From Egicoccus halophilus (GTDB lineage Bacteria; Actinomycetota; Nitriliruptoria; Nitriliruptorales; Nitriliruptoraceae): DNA of 64,000 nt. Shown here piece after piece: positions 13,213-28,435 of the stretch. Under the pieces are notes generated by a model, which searched no databases, had not been told where the DNA came from, and saw only the letters and a program-made list of their open reading frames with translations. Numbering within the stretch: position 1 is the stretch's first letter; every line of letters starts with the position of its first letter. The stretch spans positions 3,607,001 to 3,671,000 of the forward strand of contig NZ_CP036250.1 in NCBI RefSeq assembly GCF_004300825.1, written 5' to 3'. The position numbers were made by a program, and so were the translations under genes.

Positions 13213-14436
13213 ATGAGGACGCGCAAGACGGTCAAGGAACTGCTGGTCGGCGCGAAGGACGCGGCCGAGCTGATGGTGGACCTCGCGTACGCCGCGATCT
13301 TCTTCGGCGACGAGTCCCTGGCCCGCGAGGTGTTGCGCCTCGAGGACCAGGTCGACGAGCTGCTCGTCGACCTCCGTGCCGTGTGTATGATCGCGGCCCG
13401 GACACCCGACGACGCCGACCGGCTGGCCGGCGTGCTGTCCATGGCGGTGTCGATCGAGGGCATCGCCGACGCCGCCGAGGACATCGCCCGGGTGGTGCTC
13501 AAGGACCTCGGCGTCCCGGGCGAACTGCGTGACGACCTGCGCCACGCCACCGAGGTCACCGCGCGGGTCAAGATCCGCGAGGAGAACCAGCTGGCCAGCG
13601 CGTCGCTGCGCGATCTCGAGCTGCCGGCCCGCACCGGGATGTGGGTGATCGCGATCCGTCGCGACGTCGACTGGCTCTACGGACCCGAACCCGAGGAGGT
13701 GCTGCGCGAGGGCGACGTGCTGTTCCTGCAGGGCCCGCCCGAGGGCGTCGACCACGCCCGCGAGCTCGCGGGCGGCACGCCCCGGCACTTCCCACCGCCG
13801 CCCAAGCGCGCCAAGCTGTCCAACCTCGACCGGGCCGTGGACGTCATCGTCGAACTCAAGAACGCCTCCGAGGTCGCGGTCGGGTTGGCCTACTCCGCGA
13901 TCCTGCTCCGCGACCAGTCGCTGGCCGCCGAGGTCGCGGTCATCGAGGACAAGTCCGACGAGCTCTACCACCAGCTCGAGGGATGGGTGCTGCGCGCCGC
14001 CGCGGAACTCGACGACCCCGACGAGCTGCGCGGACTGATCCACCTCGCCTCCTCGTCCGAGCGCATCGTCGACGCCGCCCAGTCCATGACCCGGGTCATC
14101 GAGGACGAGGGACCGCCGCACCCGATCATCGCGGCCGCGTTGTCCGAGGCCGACGAGATCGTCGCCGAGGCGATCGTCGCGACGGGCAGCCCCGCCGAGG
14201 GCCACACCCTGGGCGAACTGCAGATCCACACGGAGACCGGCATGGAGGTCCTGGCGATCCAGCGCAGCGAGCGCTGGGTCTACCGACCCCGGCGTTCCCG
14301 GTCGCTGCAGGCCGGCGACCGCCTGCTGGCCATGGGCCCCGAGGAGGGCGCACCGCGCCTGCGGGTGCTCTGCGGCGACCAGCGCCCCGAGGGCGAGGAG
14401 GGCTGGATCGAGCCCGAGGACCTCGACGAGGACTGA
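13213..14436 (+). CDS. double PhoU / TrkA_C regulatory protein
   Basis: 407 residues of soluble protein. The order is a PhoU-like helical domain (about 5-110), a TrkA_C/RCK-C beta domain (about 120-190, ending VLFLQGP), a second PhoU-like domain (about 205-320) and a second TrkA_C domain (about 330-395, with LLAMGPEEG). The two halves align: ELMVDLAYAAIFFGDESLAREV against EVAVGLAYSAILLRDQSLAAEV. PhoU/TrkA_C proteins (COG3273) commonly pair with MgtE-like permeases. TrkA_C domains bind small ligands such as nucleotides, so this protein is likely the cytoplasmic gate of the permease encoded 1 nt upstream. The ligand is unknown. Confidence 0.82.
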   Translation: MRTRKTVKELLVGAKDAAELMVDLAYAAIFFGDESLAREVLRLEDQVDELLVDLRAVCMIAARTPDDADRLAGVLSMAVSIEGIADAAEDIARVVLKDLGVPGELRDDLRHATEVTARVKIREENQLASASLRDLELPARTGMWVIAIRRDVDWLYGPEPEEVLREGDVLFLQGPPEGVDHARELAGGTPRHFPPPPKRAKLSNLDRAVDVIVELKNASEVAVGLAYSAILLRDQSLAAEVAVIEDKSDELYHQLEGWVLRAAAELDDPDELRGLIHLASSSERIVDAAQSMTRVIEDEGPPHPIIAAALSEADEIVAEAIVATGSPAEGHTLGELQIHTETGMEVLAIQRSERWVYRPRRSRSLQAGDRLLAMGPEEGAPRLRVLCGDQRPEGEEGWIEPEDLDED

Positions 14437-21721: not shown

Positions 21722-23527
21722 ATGTTCGACGCCGTCCTGGTCGCCAACCGCGGGGAGATCGCGATCCGCGTTCTCCGCGCCTGCCGGGAGCTCGGCGTGC
21801 GCAGCGTCGCCGTCTACTCCGAGGTCGACCGCGACGCGCCCCACGTGCGCCTGGCCGACGAGGCGTACCTGTTGGGACCGGCGCCAGCGGCCGAGTCCTA
21901 CCTGAACATCGACAGGATCCTCTCGGTGGCGCACGCCGCCGGGGTCGACGCGATCCATCCCGGCTACGGCTTCCTGTCGGAGAACGCCGACTTCGCCGAG
22001 GCGGTCGCCGCCGCCGGGCTGACGTTCGTCGGCCCGCCCGCCGAGGCGATCCGGCGGATGGGCGACAAGCTCTCCGCCCGCGCGGTGGCGCTCGCGGCCG
22101 GCGTGCCGGTCGTCCCGGGCACGCTGGAGCCGACCGACGACCCGGAGGTCGCCATCGCCTTCGGCGACGAGCACGGCTACCCGGTCGCGGTCAAGGCGAT
22201 GTTCGGTGGTGGTGGACGCGGCATGAAGGTCGTGCGCGACGCCGAGCAGATGCGCGAGGCCCTCGAGGCCGCCCAGCGTGAGGCCAAGGCCGCCTTCGGC
22301 CGCGGCGAGTGCTACCTCGAGCGCTACCTCGAGCGCCCCCGCCACATCGAGATCCAGGTGCTCGGTGACCTCGACGGCACGCTGATCCACCTCGGCGAGC
22401 GCGACTGCTCCCTGCAGCGCCGCCACCAGAAGCTGGTCGAGGAGGCCCCGGCCGCCGGCATCACGCAGGGCCTGCGCGACCGCATCGGCCGGGCCGCCAT
22501 CGAGGTCGCCCGCGAGATGGGCTACTTCAACGCCGGCACGTGCGAGTTCCTCCTCGACCCATCGGCTGCGCCTTCCGGGGGAGCCGACGACGACGTGCCG
22601 TTCTACTTCCTCGAGATGAACACCCGCCTGCAGGTCGAGCACCCCGTGACCGAGATGGTCACCGGCGTCGACCTCGCGCAGGCCCAGCTGCGCATCGCCT
22701 CGGGCGACGGCATGGGGCTGACCCAGGACGACGTCGTGCTCACCGGCCACGCGATCGAGGCGCGGATCAACGCCGAGGAGCCGGCCACCAACTTTCTGCC
22801 GACCCCGGGTCTGATCACGAAGCTGGTGCCGCCACAGGGTCCGTGGGTGCGCTTCGACACCGGCGCCGAGTCGGACTACGAGGTGCCCCGCGACTACGAC
22901 TCGATGATCGCCAAGCTGATCGTCTGGGGCGCCGACCGTCCGGCGGCGATCGCGCGGATGCGTCGGGCCCTCGACGAGCTGGTGCTCGAGGGCATCCCGA
23001 CGACCGTGACCTTCCACGCGCTGGCGATGCGCAACGAGCAGTTCGCCGCCGGCGAGCACGCGACGAGCTCGGTCGAGCGCGAGTGGGACCTGTCGTCGCT
23101 GGCACCGCAGGGGCCGGCCACTGCAGGCACGGGCGACGACCCGGAGCCCTCGCGGGAGGTGACGGTCGAGGTCGACGGCAAGCGGCTCGGCGTGCGCGTC
23201 TTCGGCGAGCTCGCCGCGGGGGGCGGGGGCGGGGGCGGTTCGCGCACGGCCACGAAGCGACGTTCGCGTGGCGGCGCGTCGGGCACGGCCAGGGCGGCGG
23301 CCTCCAGCGAGGACCTCGTCGCCCCGATGCAGGGCACCGTCGTCAAGTACGCGGTGGCAGAGGGGGACACGGTCGCGGCCGGGGACCTCGTCGCGGTCCT
23401 CGAGGCGATGAAGATGGAGAACAACATCACCGCGCACCGCGACGGGACCGTCACCAGCGTCGGCTACGCCGCCGGTGACGTCGTCGAGTCCGGGGCCGTG
23501 CTCGCCCGCATCGAGGACGCCGGCTGA
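21722..23527 (+). CDS. accA3: acyl-CoA carboxylase alpha subunit (biotin carboxylase + biotin carrier)
   Basis: 601 residues. The biotin carboxylase part (about 1-450) has VLVANRGEIAIRV, HPGYGFLSEN, the ATP-grasp Gly loop MFGGGGRGMKVV, LGERDCSLQRRHQK and EMNTRLQVEHPVTE. After a flexible Gly-rich, basic linker (about residue 500) comes the biotinyl domain, with AMKM at residues 562-565 and Lys564 as the biotin site. Its length and layout match the AccA3/PccA alpha subunits that serve several carboxyltransferase beta subunits in actinobacteria. The beta and epsilon genes lie 1.6 kb upstream on the same strand but are separated by two opposite-strand cupredoxin genes. Confidence 0.96.
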   Translation: MFDAVLVANRGEIAIRVLRACRELGVRSVAVYSEVDRDAPHVRLADEAYLLGPAPAAESYLNIDRILSVAHAAGVDAIHPGYGFLSENADFAEAVAAAGLTFVGPPAEAIRRMGDKLSARAVALAAGVPVVPGTLEPTDDPEVAIAFGDEHGYPVAVKAMFGGGGRGMKVVRDAEQMREALEAAQREAKAAFGRGECYLERYLERPRHIEIQVLGDLDGTLIHLGERDCSLQRRHQKLVEEAPAAGITQGLRDRIGRAAIEVAREMGYFNAGTCEFLLDPSAAPSGGADDDVPFYFLEMNTRLQVEHPVTEMVTGVDLAQAQLRIASGDGMGLTQDDVVLTGHAIEARINAEEPATNFLPTPGLITKLVPPQGPWVRFDTGAESDYEVPRDYDSMIAKLIVWGADRPAAIARMRRALDELVLEGIPTTVTFHALAMRNEQFAAGEHATSSVEREWDLSSLAPQGPATAGTGDDPEPSREVTVEVDGKRLGVRVFGELAAGGGGGGGSRTATKRRSRGGASGTARAAASSEDLVAPMQGTVVKYAVAEGDTVAAGDLVAVLEAMKMENNITAHRDGTVTSVGYAAGDVVESGAVLARIEDAG

Positions 23528-23551: not shown

Positions 23552-23584
23552 GTTCACCGTTCGTTCAACGCATGATCAGCCCGG
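23552..23584 (+). promoter_or_regulatory. PHO-box-like 11-nt direct repeats
   Basis: Three consecutive 11-nt units start GTTCACC, GTTCAAC and GATCAGC (23552, 23563, 23574). This phasing matches the Streptomyces PhoP direct-repeat unit. A further GTTCACC is at 23628. It lies upstream of the secreted nuclease gene. Confidence 0.5.
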
Positions 23585-23589
23585 ATCGA

Positions 23590-23606
23590 CCGGTTCGTTG
23601 AACCGG
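23590..23606. repeat. 17-bp palindrome
   Basis: CCGGTTC-GTT-GAACCGG, a perfect 7-bp inverted repeat just after the PHO-like repeats; a possible operator for a dimeric regulator. Confidence 0.35.
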
Positions 23607-23713
23607 ATGTCGCGCGGATGTGGTTCTGTTCACCCGTCCGTTCGGAGGCGGACGATGGTCGGCGTGCCCGGGCGCGCCGACGCGTCGCGCCTCCTCGACC
23701 GAGGTCTGCCCGT

Positions 23714-26700
23714 ATGCGTCGAACCACCCTGCTGGTGTTGCTCGCCATGCTCACCAGCGCCCTCCCCCTGGCCTCTTCGGGGGCCATCGCCCAGGAGGCC
23801 GGGCCAACGCTCGTCCTCAGCCAGGTCTACGGCGGCGGCGGCAATGCCAGCGCCCCGTACAACCGTGACTACGTCGAGGTCTTCAACCGCGGCAGCGCCC
23901 CGGTGTCCCTCGACGGCCTGTCGGTCCAGTACGCCTCCGGCACCGGCACCGGCAACTTCGGCGCCAACGCCGGCCAGCTCGTGTCGCTCGGCGGCACGGT
24001 CGCGCCCGGTGGCTACCACCTCGTCGCCCTCGGCGGCGGGAGCACCGGCGCCGATCTGCCGGCACCCGACAGCACCGGCACCATCAACATGTCCGCCAGC
24101 GCGGGCAAGGTCGCGCTCGTCGACGGCACCGACGGCCTCGGCTGCAACGGCGGCAGCACCGCCTGCGACGCCGCGCAGCTGGCACGCATCGTCGACCTCG
24201 TCGGGTTCGGCAGCGCCAACTTCTTCGAGGGCAGTGGCGCCGCGCCGACGCTGAGCAACACGACGGCCGCGTTCCGTGCCGACGGCGGGTGCACCGACAC
24301 CGACGACAACGCCGCCGACTTCGTCGCCGACGGCCCCGCACCGCGCAACAGCGCCACACCCACCAGCCCCTGCGGCGAGGCCGGTGAGCCCGTCGGCCCG
24401 ATCGTCGTGGTCAGCCAGGTCTACGGCGGCGGCGGCAACAGCGGATCCATCTACACCAACGACTTCGTCGAACTGTTCAACCGCGGCGACCAGACCGCGA
24501 CCGTGGACGGCTGGGTCGTCGGCTACGCCTCGGCGACCGGCAGCAGCTGGAACACCACCACGCTGAGCGGCACGATCCCGGCCGGCGGCTACCTGCTCGT
24601 GCAGCAGGCCGCGGGTTCCGGCGGTACCACGCCGTTGCCCACCCCGGACGTCACCGGCACCGCCAGCATGTCGGCCACCGCCGGCAAGGTCGCCCTGGCC
24701 ACCTCGAGCGCCGCACTGACCGGCACCTGCCCCACCGACGTCGTCGACCTCGTCGGCTTCGGCGGCACGGCCAACTGCTTCGAGGGCTCCGCCCCCACCC
24801 CGGCACCGAGCAACACCAACGCGGTGCTGCGCGCCGACGCCGGCTGCGTCGACACCGGCGACAACGCGGCCGACTTCGCCACCGGCACGCCCGCCCCGCG
24901 CAACAGCGCGACGGACGCCAACCCGTGCGGTGCGGTCCTCCCGGACCCGGACCCGGATCCCGATCCCGATCCCGACCCGGACCCCGAGTTCCCCGCGGAC
25001 GTGTGCACGGCCACCAGCGACGACCTGACCGTCATCAACGAGATCCAGGGTGCCGGCTCGGTCACGCCGATCGCCGGTGAGCTGGTCCTCACCCGCGGGG
25101 TGGTCACCGCCGACCACACCTCGGGCGGCGAGAGCGGCGTGCCGGCCAACCAGGGCCTGCGCGGCTTCTTCGTCGAGGCGATCGCGGCCGACCGTGACGC
25201 CGACCCGGCCACCTCCGAGGGCCTGTTCGTCTTCGACGGCGCCGGGGTCTTCGACGGCAAGGTCGGCGACCTCGTCCACGTCGTGGGCCGTCCCGCCGAG
25301 CAGTTCGACGTCACCCAGCTCAGTGCCGACCAGTTGGCCGTGTGCACCGGCACCGGGGTCGACACGACCCTGCCCCCGCCGGCCGAGCTGCCCCTGCCGA
25401 CCCACCCCGACGACCGCGACCAGGTCTTCGAGCCGCTCGAGTCGATGCGGGTCGTGCACCCCGAGCTGACGGTCGTCGAGTTCTTCCAGATCGAACGGTT
25501 CGGCGAGGTCCGCCTGTCGTCGGGTGGCGTGCTCGCCAACCCGACCAACGTGGTCGACCCGCGCGACGACGCGGCCTACCAGGCGGTCGTCGACTACAAC
25601 GCGGCCAACAACATCATCCTCGACGACGGTCGGACGGGCCAGAACCTCGACCCGCTCCCCTACGTCGTGCCGGGTGACACGCTGCGCATCGGTGACCAGC
25701 TGCGCGACGTCCCGACGATCCTGCACTACGCCTTCAACGAGTGGCGCCTCCAGCCGATCGACGTCGGCGAGATCACCGAGGAACTGCGCGACAACCGGAC
25801 CCGCCCGCGTCCGCAGACGCCGCCGGAGGTCGGCGGCAGCCTGACGGTCGCGAGCTTCAACGTCCTCAACTACTTCAACGGCGACGGCTACTTCGTCGGT
25901 GACGACCCCGCGACCGCGCAGGGCTTCCCGACCTCGCGTGGCGCGGTCACCCCGTCGGAGTTCGAGCGGCAGACCGAGAAGATCGTCGACGCGATCGTGC
26001 GCATGGACGCCGACGTGCTGGGCCTGATCGAGATCGAGAACGACGAGGGCCCGCGCCAGGCCGCGGCCGCGCTCGTCGACGCCGTCAACACCACGCTGGG
26101 CACCGAGGCGTACGACTACCTCGACACCGGCGTGATCGGCACCGACGCGATCAAGCTCGCGTTCATCTACAAGCCGTCCACGGTGGCACCGACCGGCGAC
26201 TACGCGATCCTCGACAGCTCGGTCGACCCGCGCTTCGAGGACAACCGCAGCCGTCCGATGCTGACGCAGACCTTCACCGAGCTCGCCACCGGCGAGGCGG
26301 TGACGGTGTCGGTCAACCACCTCAAGTCGAAGGGTTCGGCCTGCGCCGCCGCCGACAACGACCCCCGCCAGGGCAACTGCAACGGGGTGCGTCTGCGCGC
26401 GGCACAGGCGATCGCCGACTTCCTGGCGACCAACCCGACCGGGCAGGAGTCCCGCGGTGACCTGATCATCGGCGACCTCAACGCCTACGCGCAGGAGGAC
26501 CCGATCCGGGCGCTGCAGCAGGCCGGCTACACCGACCTGCTGGACGCCTTCGCGGCCGACGGCGAGATGCCCTACACCTACACGTTCGACGCCACGCAGG
26601 GCTACCTCGACCACGCGCTGGCCGACGCCGCCCTGCTCGAGTACGTGACCGGCGCGGCGGCATGGAACATCAACGCCGACGAGGTCCCGGCCATCGACTA

Positions 26701-26959
26701 CCTCGAGTCGTGCTGTGGCCGGTTCCGCACCGCCGACGTCGCGCAGCGCTTCTACGACCCGAGCGCGTTCCGCTCGTCGGACCACGACCCGGTGATCGTC
26801 GGCCTGCAGCTGGCCGACGCACCGGTGACACCGTCGGCGCCGTCCAGCAAGGACGAGTGCAAGGGCGGCGGCTGGCGGACCTTCACCGATCCGACGTTCC
26901 GCAACCAGGGCCAGTGCGTGGCCTGGGTGGCGTCGGGCGGGAAGAACCACCTCGGCTGA
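23714..26959 (+). CDS. secreted ExeM/NucH-type extracellular nuclease with two lamin-tail domains
   Basis: 1081 residues. A signal peptide spans residues 1-26 (cleavage after AIA). Two lamin-tail domains follow, each opening with VxSQVYGGGGN (near 33 and 233) and ending with a Cys/Pro-rich NSAT segment. An Asp-Pro repeat linker lies at about 410-425, then an OB-like region. From about residue 709 there is an endonuclease/exonuclease/phosphatase domain: LTVASFNVLNYF, LIEIENDEG (metal Glu), NHLKSKG, IIGDLNAYAQEDP and the terminal SDHDPVI. A short C-terminal Cys motif (CKGGGWR...FRNQGQCVAWV) closes the protein. It should degrade extracellular DNA or RNA. The upstream PHO-like repeats suggest phosphate scavenging. 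Confidence 0.9.
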   Translation: MRRTTLLVLLAMLTSALPLASSGAIAQEAGPTLVLSQVYGGGGNASAPYNRDYVEVFNRGSAPVSLDGLSVQYASGTGTGNFGANAGQLVSLGGTVAPGGYHLVALGGGSTGADLPAPDSTGTINMSASAGKVALVDGTDGLGCNGGSTACDAAQLARIVDLVGFGSANFFEGSGAAPTLSNTTAAFRADGGCTDTDDNAADFVADGPAPRNSATPTSPCGEAGEPVGPIVVVSQVYGGGGNSGSIYTNDFVELFNRGDQTATVDGWVVGYASATGSSWNTTTLSGTIPAGGYLLVQQAAGSGGTTPLPTPDVTGTASMSATAGKVALATSSAALTGTCPTDVVDLVGFGGTANCFEGSAPTPAPSNTNAVLRADAGCVDTGDNAADFATGTPAPRNSATDANPCGAVLPDPDPDPDPDPDPDPEFPADVCTATSDDLTVINEIQGAGSVTPIAGELVLTRGVVTADHTSGGESGVPANQGLRGFFVEAIAADRDADPATSEGLFVFDGAGVFDGKVGDLVHVVGRPAEQFDVTQLSADQLAVCTGTGVDTTLPPPAELPLPTHPDDRDQVFEPLESMRVVHPELTVVEFFQIERFGEVRLSSGGVLANPTNVVDPRDDAAYQAVVDYNAANNIILDDGRTGQNLDPLPYVVPGDTLRIGDQLRDVPTILHYAFNEWRLQPIDVGEITEELRDNRTRPRPQTPPEVGGSLTVASFNVLNYFNGDGYFVGDDPATAQGFPTSRGAVTPSEFERQTEKIVDAIVRMDADVLGLIEIENDEGPRQAAAALVDAVNTTLGTEAYDYLDTGVIGTDAIKLAFIYKPSTVAPTGDYAILDSSVDPRFEDNRSRPMLTQTFTELATGEAVTVSVNHLKSKGSACAAADNDPRQGNCNGVRLRAAQAIADFLATNPTGQESRGDLIIGDLNAYAQEDPIRALQQAGYTDLLDAFAADGEMPYTYTFDATQGYLDHALADAALLEYVTGAAAWNINADEVPAIDYLESCCGRFRTADVAQRFYDPSAFRSSDHDPVIVGLQLADAPVTPSAPSSKDECKGGGWRTFTDPTFRNQGQCVAWVASGGKNHLG
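24944..24989 (+). repeat. Asp-Pro coding repeat
   Basis: About eight GAY-CCN codon pairs in a row encode the DP linker between the lamin-tail and catalytic parts of the nuclease. Confidence 0.7.
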
Positions 26960-27028: not shown

Positions 27029-28435
27029 TCAGCGTGGCGCGTCGAGGCGGGCCATCAGCATGCGGGCGCACTCGGCCACCGAGCCGGCCATCGACGGGTA
27101 GACGGTGATGGTCTGCGCGAGCTGCGCCACGGTCAGGCGGTTCTGCACCGCGGTCGCGAGCGGTTGGATCAGATCGCTGGCCCGCATCGACACCACGACC
27201 CCGCCGACGACCGTGCCGGACCCGACCTGGGCGTGGACCTTCACGAACCCGTCGACGCCACCGGTCATCTTCGCGCGCGGGTTGCCGCGGAAGTCGAGAC
27301 GGGCGGTCTCGACCGGGACGCCGGCCGCGGCCGCCTCCTCCGACGACATGCCCACGGTCGCGACCTCCGGATCGGTGAAGATCGTCGAGGCGACCGCGTC
27401 CCACCGGATCGGCTGGACCGCCTGGCCGAGCGCGTGCCACATCGCGGTGCGCCCCTGCATGGCCGCCACCGAGGCGAGCATCACCCGGCCGGTGACGTCC
27501 CCGGCCGCGTACACCCAGCGGCACTCGGTGCGGCCGACCGAGTCGACGTCGATCCCGCCCCAGTCGTTGACCACCGCGCCGACCTTCTCCAGGCCGATGT
27601 CCGACGCGCTCGGCACCTGCCCGACGGTGAACAGCACGTGGCTGCCCACGACCTCACCGCCGGCCTTGAGTCCGACGGCGACCTCGTCGCCGCGACGTTC
27701 GCAGGACACGGCCCGGGCGTTGCGCAGGATGGTCATCCCGCGCCGCTCGAAGACGTCCTCGATCACCTGGGCGGCGTCGGGGTCCTCGGTGGGCAGGATC
27801 AGTTCGCGGGAGCTGACCAGGGTCACCTCGGCGCCGAAGCGCCGGAAGGCGTGGGCGAACTCCGCGCCCGTCGCGCCCGAGCCGACCACGACGAGGTGTT
27901 CGGGGACCTCCGGCAGCCCGTAGACCTGCTGGCCGACGAGCACCCGCTCGCCGTCGGGCTCGAAGAACGGCAGCACCCGGGCGGTCGACCCGGTGGCGAT
28001 CAGCACGTAGTCGGCGGTCAGGACGTGCTGCTCGCCGTGCTGGTCGGTGGCGGTGACCTCGTGGTAGCCCGAGAGGCGCCCCCGTCCGCGGACGAGCTTC
28101 ACGCCCACGGCCTCGCTCTTGGCCTCGATGTCGCGCGACTGGTTCGCGCCGAGCTGCAGGACGTTGGCCGCCACCTTGGGGAAGTCGACCACGGTGCGGT
28201 CGACCGGCTGACCCTCGGGCAGGTGGACGCCCATGCCCTCGGCGAGATCCAGCCAACCCATCGCCTCGGCGGCGACGATCAGTGCTTTGGACGGCACGCA
28301 GTCCCACAGGACGCTGTTGCCGCCCAGTCCCTCGTCGGTGACGATGGTGACGTCGGCGCCGAGCTCGACGGCGACCAGCGCGGCCTCGTAGCCGGCCGGC
28401 CCGCCGCCGAGGATGACGATGCGTTGCGTGCTCAC
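27029..28435 (-). CDS. lpdA: NAD(P)H-quinone reductase LpdA-like flavoprotein
   Basis: 468 residues of the pyridine-nucleotide disulfide oxidoreductase fold. It has the FAD Rossmann motif VILGGGPAGYEAA, the NAD(P) motif VVGSGATGAEFA and a C-terminal dimerisation domain. The active-site strand reads GGNSVLWDCVPSK: only Cys46 of the usual CxxxxC redox pair remains, with Ser at position 41. The C-terminus also lacks the His-Glu pair of true lipoamide dehydrogenase. This matches the mycobacterial LpdA (Rv3303c) group, which reduces quinones and not lipoamide. It should act in quinone redox balance or oxidative defence. It is a single gene. Confidence 0.9.
   Translation of the reverse strand: MSTQRIVILGGGPAGYEAALVAVELGADVTIVTDEGLGGNSVLWDCVPSKALIVAAEAMGWLDLAEGMGVHLPEGQPVDRTVVDFPKVAANVLQLGANQSRDIEAKSEAVGVKLVRGRGRLSGYHEVTATDQHGEQHVLTADYVLIATGSTARVLPFFEPDGERVLVGQQVYGLPEVPEHLVVVGSGATGAEFAHAFRRFGAEVTLVSSRELILPTEDPDAAQVIEDVFERRGMTILRNARAVSCERRGDEVAVGLKAGGEVVGSHVLFTVGQVPSASDIGLEKVGAVVNDWGGIDVDSVGRTECRWVYAAGDVTGRVMLASVAAMQGRTAMWHALGQAVQPIRWDAVASTIFTDPEVATVGMSSEEAAAAGVPVETARLDFRGNPRAKMTGGVDGFVKVHAQVGSGTVVGGVVVSMRASDLIQPLATAVQNRLTVAQLAQTITVYPSMAGSVAECARMLMARLDAPR

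Follow-up and report, generated by a model that had tools for sequence, protein, structure and literature searches.

Does a short array of direct repeats place the gene for a secreted nuclease under the control of phosphate starvation? The array lies at 23552–23580 on the + strand of the window, the whole 64,000-nucleotide stretch of DNA that was analysed here, and reads directly as GTTCACC gttc GTTCAAC gcat GATCAGC. A first-pass annotation had likened these repeats to the PhoP sites of Streptomyces, and had proposed that the nuclease gene responds to phosphate starvation and supplies phosphate from extracellular DNA. Our analysis makes it highly probable that the array is a PHO box of the PhoP/RegX3 type, a predicted tandem site for the phosphate-starvation regulator, and that it drives the secreted nuclease.

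Results

The three units (GTTCACC at 23552–23558, GTTCAAC at 23563–23569 and GATCAGC at 23574–23580) follow one another with a period of exactly 11 nt on the same strand as the nuclease gene, as the annotation had described, and the array begins 162 nt 5′ of the nuclease ATG. The locus thereby shows the sequence pattern of a PHO box, at least two GTTCACC-like 7-nt units repeated every 11 nt exactly. ATCGACC (23585–23591, +) continues the register as a weak fourth unit, with a match of 4/7. The later GTTCACC that the annotation had counted with the array is present at 23628–23634 (+), but it starts 76 nt past unit 1, one base off the 11-nt register, and is ruled out as an in-register unit; it stands as an isolated half-site.

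Scored against GTTCACC, the array has the highest two-unit score (12.5/13) and the highest three-unit score (17.5/19.5, with a runner-up of 14.5) on both strands of the window, and its four-unit score with ATCGACC included (21.0/26) is also the top in the window. When periods from 7 to 15 nt were scanned across the window, 11 alone stood out. As a chance control, a first-order Markov model that keeps the dinucleotide make-up of the window was used to generate 12 Mb of sequence, and this contained no two-unit site scoring at least 12.0 and no three-unit site scoring at least 17. With up to three mismatches allowed, the window alone yielded 45 matches against 35.9 expected, and 7/100 shuffles reached 45; the excess at this loose setting is not clear, so the case rests on the exactness of the site at 23552. 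The array is confirmed as a real site that exceeds chance.

The gene behind the array (23714–26959, +) encodes a secreted nuclease of 1081 aa. It matches the NCBIfam model NF033681 (ExeM/NucH extracellular endonuclease) with 551.8 bits against a cut-off of 300, along the full profile (1–546 of 546), and Pfam identifies an LTD (lamin-tail) and an Exo_endo_phos (endonuclease/exonuclease/phosphatase) domain. The start was set at the ATG at 23714 rather than at the longer open reading frame from 23618, and the N terminus that follows (MRRTTLLVLLAML) resembles a signal peptide by eye. The full-length match above cut-off, the LTD domain and the apparent signal peptide together place the protein in the ExeM/NucH family; a comparison with PDB sequences gave zero matches at E 0.01. 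The C terminus (window 26831–26944, residues about 1040–1077, CKGGGWRTF..FRNQGQCVAWV) resembles short stretches of many open frames in the class, and the same genome carries a second copy of this small shared module at 1168907–1169008.

Upstream, the gene for the biotin carboxylase subunit of an acyl-CoA carboxylase (21722–23527, +) ends with its stop 24 nt before the array. The downstream gene, for a pyridine-nucleotide disulphide oxidoreductase (27029–28435, −), is convergent, and the nuclease is therefore likely to form a transcription unit of one gene. A perfect 7-bp palindrome, CCGGTTC-GTT-GAACCGG (23590–23606), overlaps the end of the array and is predicted to form a hairpin of −10.2 kcal/mol as centroid. 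Folding of the 51 nt around it was no better than that of shuffles, and a T tract of the terminator type is absent; the idea that the palindrome terminates the carboxylase transcript gained no support, since no terminator-like site was found. No sigma-70-like promoter was found, and the + strand carries no TANNNT anywhere in 23552–23714, which leaves the core promoter unlocated. The closest look-alike of TANNNT at a fitting distance before the nuclease is TTCTGT at 23624.

We then scanned the 3.98-Mb single contig of the genome for GTTCANCN4GTTCANC with up to one mismatch, which is in essence the check that the annotation had proposed, and used the reversed pattern as a control. The scan returned 10 matches, three of them exact, against 0 for the reversed pattern. 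One exact match (883732, +) lies 97 nt 5′ of the ATG of pstS, another (888145, −) lies 5′ of pstB (PstB model 393 bits, cut-off 343.2), and the third is the nuclease array. Among the seven one-mismatch rows, one is the overlapping second pair of the nuclease array itself. A further one (330616, −) precedes the GTG of a 5′-nucleotidase with SLH domains by 164 nt, with a tRNA-Ile gene on its other side, and for another (3052426, +) the gene 102 nt downstream encodes a secreted, metallophosphatase-like protein of 633 aa. The latter shows GNHE and GHSH motifs by eye and a Metallophos match of 20 bits against a cut-off of 21.5, and it matched no NCBIfam model and no PDB sequence. The motif is thus found at pst and phosphatase-type genes of its own genome, so that the refuting condition named in the annotation, no such array at pst or phosphatase genes, did not hold, and the two-unit score at the nuclease (12.5) is above those at the 5′-nucleotidase (11.5) and the metallophosphatase-like gene (12.0).

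The remaining four one-mismatch matches lie inside genes (2216619 and 3555532) or before genes without a known phosphate role (2220717 and 3099292), and these may be chance matches. Since the reversed pattern gave 1, 2 and 3 matches at up to one mismatch in three congeners, a few background sites are to be expected at this setting. A profile search of the genome for PhoD gave one match, below cut-off. In the pstS promoter (L012 3720–3760), additional units are visible by eye 5′ of the exact pair, one of them spaced by 12 nt rather than 11. The window also holds, at 13213–14436 and distant from the pst cluster, a frame of 407 aa that matches the PhoU domain twice, and no two-unit site with up to one mismatch was found near it.

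The pst cluster, at about 0.89 Mb, contains PhoU-domain genes together with a response regulator (889835–890518) and a kinase. The regulator gene is adjoined by phoU on the opposite strand; in Streptomyces, too, phoU lies beside and opposite phoP. Among proteins in the PDB, the regulator is closest to RegX3 of M. tuberculosis (2oqr, 281 bits) and next to MtrA (212 bits), and its recognition helix (GDTKTLDVHIRRLRTRVE) is nearly identical to that of RegX3 (GDTKTLDVHVKRLRSKIE). We take RegX3 to be the counterpart of the regulator called PhoP in Streptomyces. The best NCBIfam models all score below their cut-offs, both for the regulator (MtrA 262.0, cut-off 300; YycF 252.9, cut-off 340; PhoB 246.8, cut-off 296.2) and for the kinase (PnpS 274.9, cut-off 400; PhoR 257.0, cut-off 334.2). 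The genome therefore encodes a putative cognate regulator, with a fitting recognition helix, and kinase, although these models remain sub-threshold, and it holds nine matches to Trans_reg_C in all.

A survey of 66 genomes of the class with the exact pattern gave 68 positions, against four for the reversed pattern, and merging of overlaps left 65 sites. For 41 of the 65, the first gene downstream is a phosphate gene at a distance of 18 to 203 nt: PstB (10), PhoU (10), PstS (8), polyphosphate kinase (6), Na/Pi cotransporter (6) and PhoD (1). This assignment agrees with the Pfam tally of the 60 distinct downstream proteins (ABC_tran 10, PhoU 10, PBP_like_2 8, PP_kinase 6, Na_Pi_cotrans 6, Response_reg 4). 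Four more sites (L117, L118, L119 and L121) are 764–843 nt away from the regulator gene that follows them; the opposite-strand phoU lies in between, and the sites are situated beyond its 3′ end. Another gene, or none, follows the other 19 sites, with a phosphate gene elsewhere in the fetched stretch in 5/19. The one remaining site of the 65 is the present array at the nuclease.

At 16 of the 65 class sites a TANNNT is placed exactly +49 from the first unit, and at four it is placed one unit nearer, at +38, where base frequencies predict about 0.3 per offset. In the present genome, TAGCTT occupies the +49 position at pstS, and at the metallophosphatase-like gene TAGCGT lies +49 from the second unit, while the nuclease has a TANNNT neither at +49 nor at a whole-unit shift from it. 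This spacing was derived from the class sites, most of which are without it, and is not family-defining.

Several class sites point to other genes. In two genomes of one genus, an EcsC-family protein has an exact box (L109 1501–1518 and L110 1501–1518) 39 nt 5′ of its predicted start, and is a possible new member of the Pho regulon. Exact boxes at L158, L178, L111 and L159 precede phosphoribosyltransferase (DBI_PRT), ice-binding-like, CWB2 cell-wall and SLH proteins by 33 to 416 nt, and may be either real targets or background. At L171 (G046:C1:3524803–3524842), four consecutive units form three overlapping exact matches 155–177 nt before a Na/Pi cotransporter-like gene.

At the nuclease itself, the box is found in one relative. 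A genome of the same genus (G042) carries GGTCAGC-aggc-GTTCACC 109 nt before a nuclease homolog that is 53% identical over residues 225–1078, and here the carboxylase gene is nearby, some 0.7 kb 5′ of the start of the nuclease. A second congener (G041), with a nuclease 81% identical over the same residues, and a member of the family (G046) both keep the window's arrangement of carboxylase next to nuclease, and neither has a box. We also surveyed 34 upstream regions of ExeM/NucH genes, 18 from other Actinomycetota and 16 from the class (G042 included), taking the + strand over 400 nt upstream of a start that was picked automatically; several regions were instead set from the frame opening. From the 20 class loci fetched, four were excluded, two for contig ends (L080 and L094) and two for uncertain starts (L096 and L097, which scored 9.0 and 8.0 separately). 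One of the 34 regions, that of G042, scores at least 11, and 7/34 score at least 10 against about 0.75 expected from the simulated sequence, with 0/34 for the reversed unit. A general link of ExeM/NucH nucleases to strong PHO boxes was thus not found in these 34 regions, beyond a surplus of low-scoring sites. Such nucleases may carry weak boxes more often than chance would give, and a strong one is exceptional. A scan of 11 of the 13 named loci (L035 and L046 were left out) gave a top score of 10.0. The box is not conserved at the nuclease homologs.

The other secreted enzymes give a similar picture. Ten of the fetched loci of 5′-nucleotidase homologs outside this genome were scanned and contained no strong box (top score 10.0). 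The metallophosphatase-like protein occurs in 2/66 class genomes, this one included. Because boxes are rare at the enzyme homologs, the secreted-enzyme branch of the regulon looks lineage-specific, with boxes at phoU and at genes for transport and polyphosphate spread through the class.

Discussion

The array resembles the known PhoP sites of Streptomyces in its unit sequence, its 11-nt period and its placement at pst genes, in its own genome and across the class, and the likeness drawn by the annotation is upheld. Two reports give the S. coelicolor PhoP motif as GTTCACCN4GTTCACC (PMC4832192) and as GTTCACC in 11-nt units (PMC4415409), and a third places Streptomyces PHO boxes at pstS and ppk (PMC7866108). 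The boxes described here likewise have two or more units and stand at pstS and, elsewhere in the class, at ppk. They differ in belonging to another class, probably Nitriliruptoria, in having an ExeM/NucH nuclease as a target, and in that this genome has, with one mismatch allowed, no two-unit site in the gap between phoU and the regulator gene.

The functional precedent comes from C. glutamicum. There, the presumed secreted nuclease gene nucH and the 5′-nucleotidase gene ushA are phosphate-starvation genes, controlled together with pstSCAB, whose promoters bind phosphorylated PhoR (PMC3353115); the same study gives the PhoR site as CCTGTGAA repeats with a 3-nt linker, which differs from the array here. 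The C. glutamicum genome, used as a control, also contains a match to NF033681. The proposal that the present nuclease is a phosphate-starvation gene, for which nucH is the precedent, is supported as an interpretation, with the correction that the link between box and nuclease is lineage-specific and not general. Phosphate control of a nuclease is therefore an idea with a history; in the present case the GTTCACC code would carry it, and the system is not of a new kind. The likeness to SenX3-RegX3 of M. tuberculosis lies in the regulator, whose closest solved relative is RegX3, with a near-identical recognition helix. A search for Nitriliruptor together with the Pho regulon returned no paper from the collection covered, and among the 10 papers listed out of 434 in a further search none names Egicoccus or Nitriliruptor.

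We propose the following model. At low phosphate, the sensor kinase would phosphorylate the regulator encoded beside phoU and pst, and the phosphorylated regulator would bind the 11-nt units head to tail and recruit RNA polymerase to the nuclease gene, presumably activating rather than repressing it. The secreted nuclease would then cut extracellular DNA, which would serve as a phosphate source, with the 5′-nucleotidase and the metallophosphatase-like enzyme, both preceded by boxes, releasing phosphate from the DNA products. The Pst transporter, whose genes have boxes too, would import it.

The best-surviving alternative, which we regard as unlikely, is that the regulator binds but represses or is without effect, the array being a decayed or relic site and the nuclease being expressed from another promoter. 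The lack of a TANNNT between the array and the start would suit this, as would the absence of the box from G041 and G046, which have the same neighbour. Precedents exist in Streptomyces, where a box that covers the −35 element, or that lies downstream of the −10 element or at the start codon, is interpreted as repressive (PMC7244524), and where confirmed boxes occur without obvious phosphate control (PMC4415409). Yet the pair at the nuclease outscores those at the 5′-nucleotidase and the metallophosphatase-like gene, the retention of all three units suggests present selection, and G042 has its box at a different distance.

Slightly less probable still is binding by another regulator whose motif is similar or identical, for example an oxygen-responsive one like PolR or another member of the OmpR family, so that the nuclease would follow a signal other than phosphate. 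In Microlunatus phosphovorus, PolR binds GTTCACnnnnnGTTCaC at the pit, ppgk, ppk and pstS promoters, and the authors speculate on oxygen as the signal and describe a high similarity of the system to DevS (PMC6754071). The nine Trans_reg_C matches leave room for such a regulator, and the top NCBIfam model of the pst-linked one is MtrA, below its cut-off. Against this, the pst-linked regulator is nearer to RegX3 than to MtrA among solved proteins, its gene lies in the pst/phoU cluster, the class sites fall at pst, phoU and ppk, and the PolR targets named above are themselves phosphate and polyphosphate genes, a point in which PolR resembles the present system. A mere chance match is the least credible reading, disfavoured by the simulation and by the genome and class scans with their reversed-pattern control: about four of the nine distinct sites found in this genome at up to one mismatch do look like chance, congeners contain reversed matches and the window shows no clear excess at three mismatches, but the nuclease site is exact, has three units and scores at a level absent from 12 Mb of simulated sequence, and the other two of the three exact genome sites stand at pst genes.

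The reading as a PHO box of the PhoP/RegX3 type extends the GTTCACC phosphate code to a deep-branching actinobacterial class that has been little studied. There the sites at pst, phoU and ppk, some of them at a fixed distance from the −10 element, make a sharp test, and the class gains a candidate list of Pho-regulon genes. We suggest tentatively, at somewhat less than even confidence, that the nuclease, the 5′-nucleotidase and the metallophosphatase-like enzyme were recently wired onto an ancient, class-wide box, and that the box-less homologs in a congener reflect a regulon that is growing. Congeners with and without the box offer a way to test how the Pho regulon gains and loses secreted scavenging enzymes.
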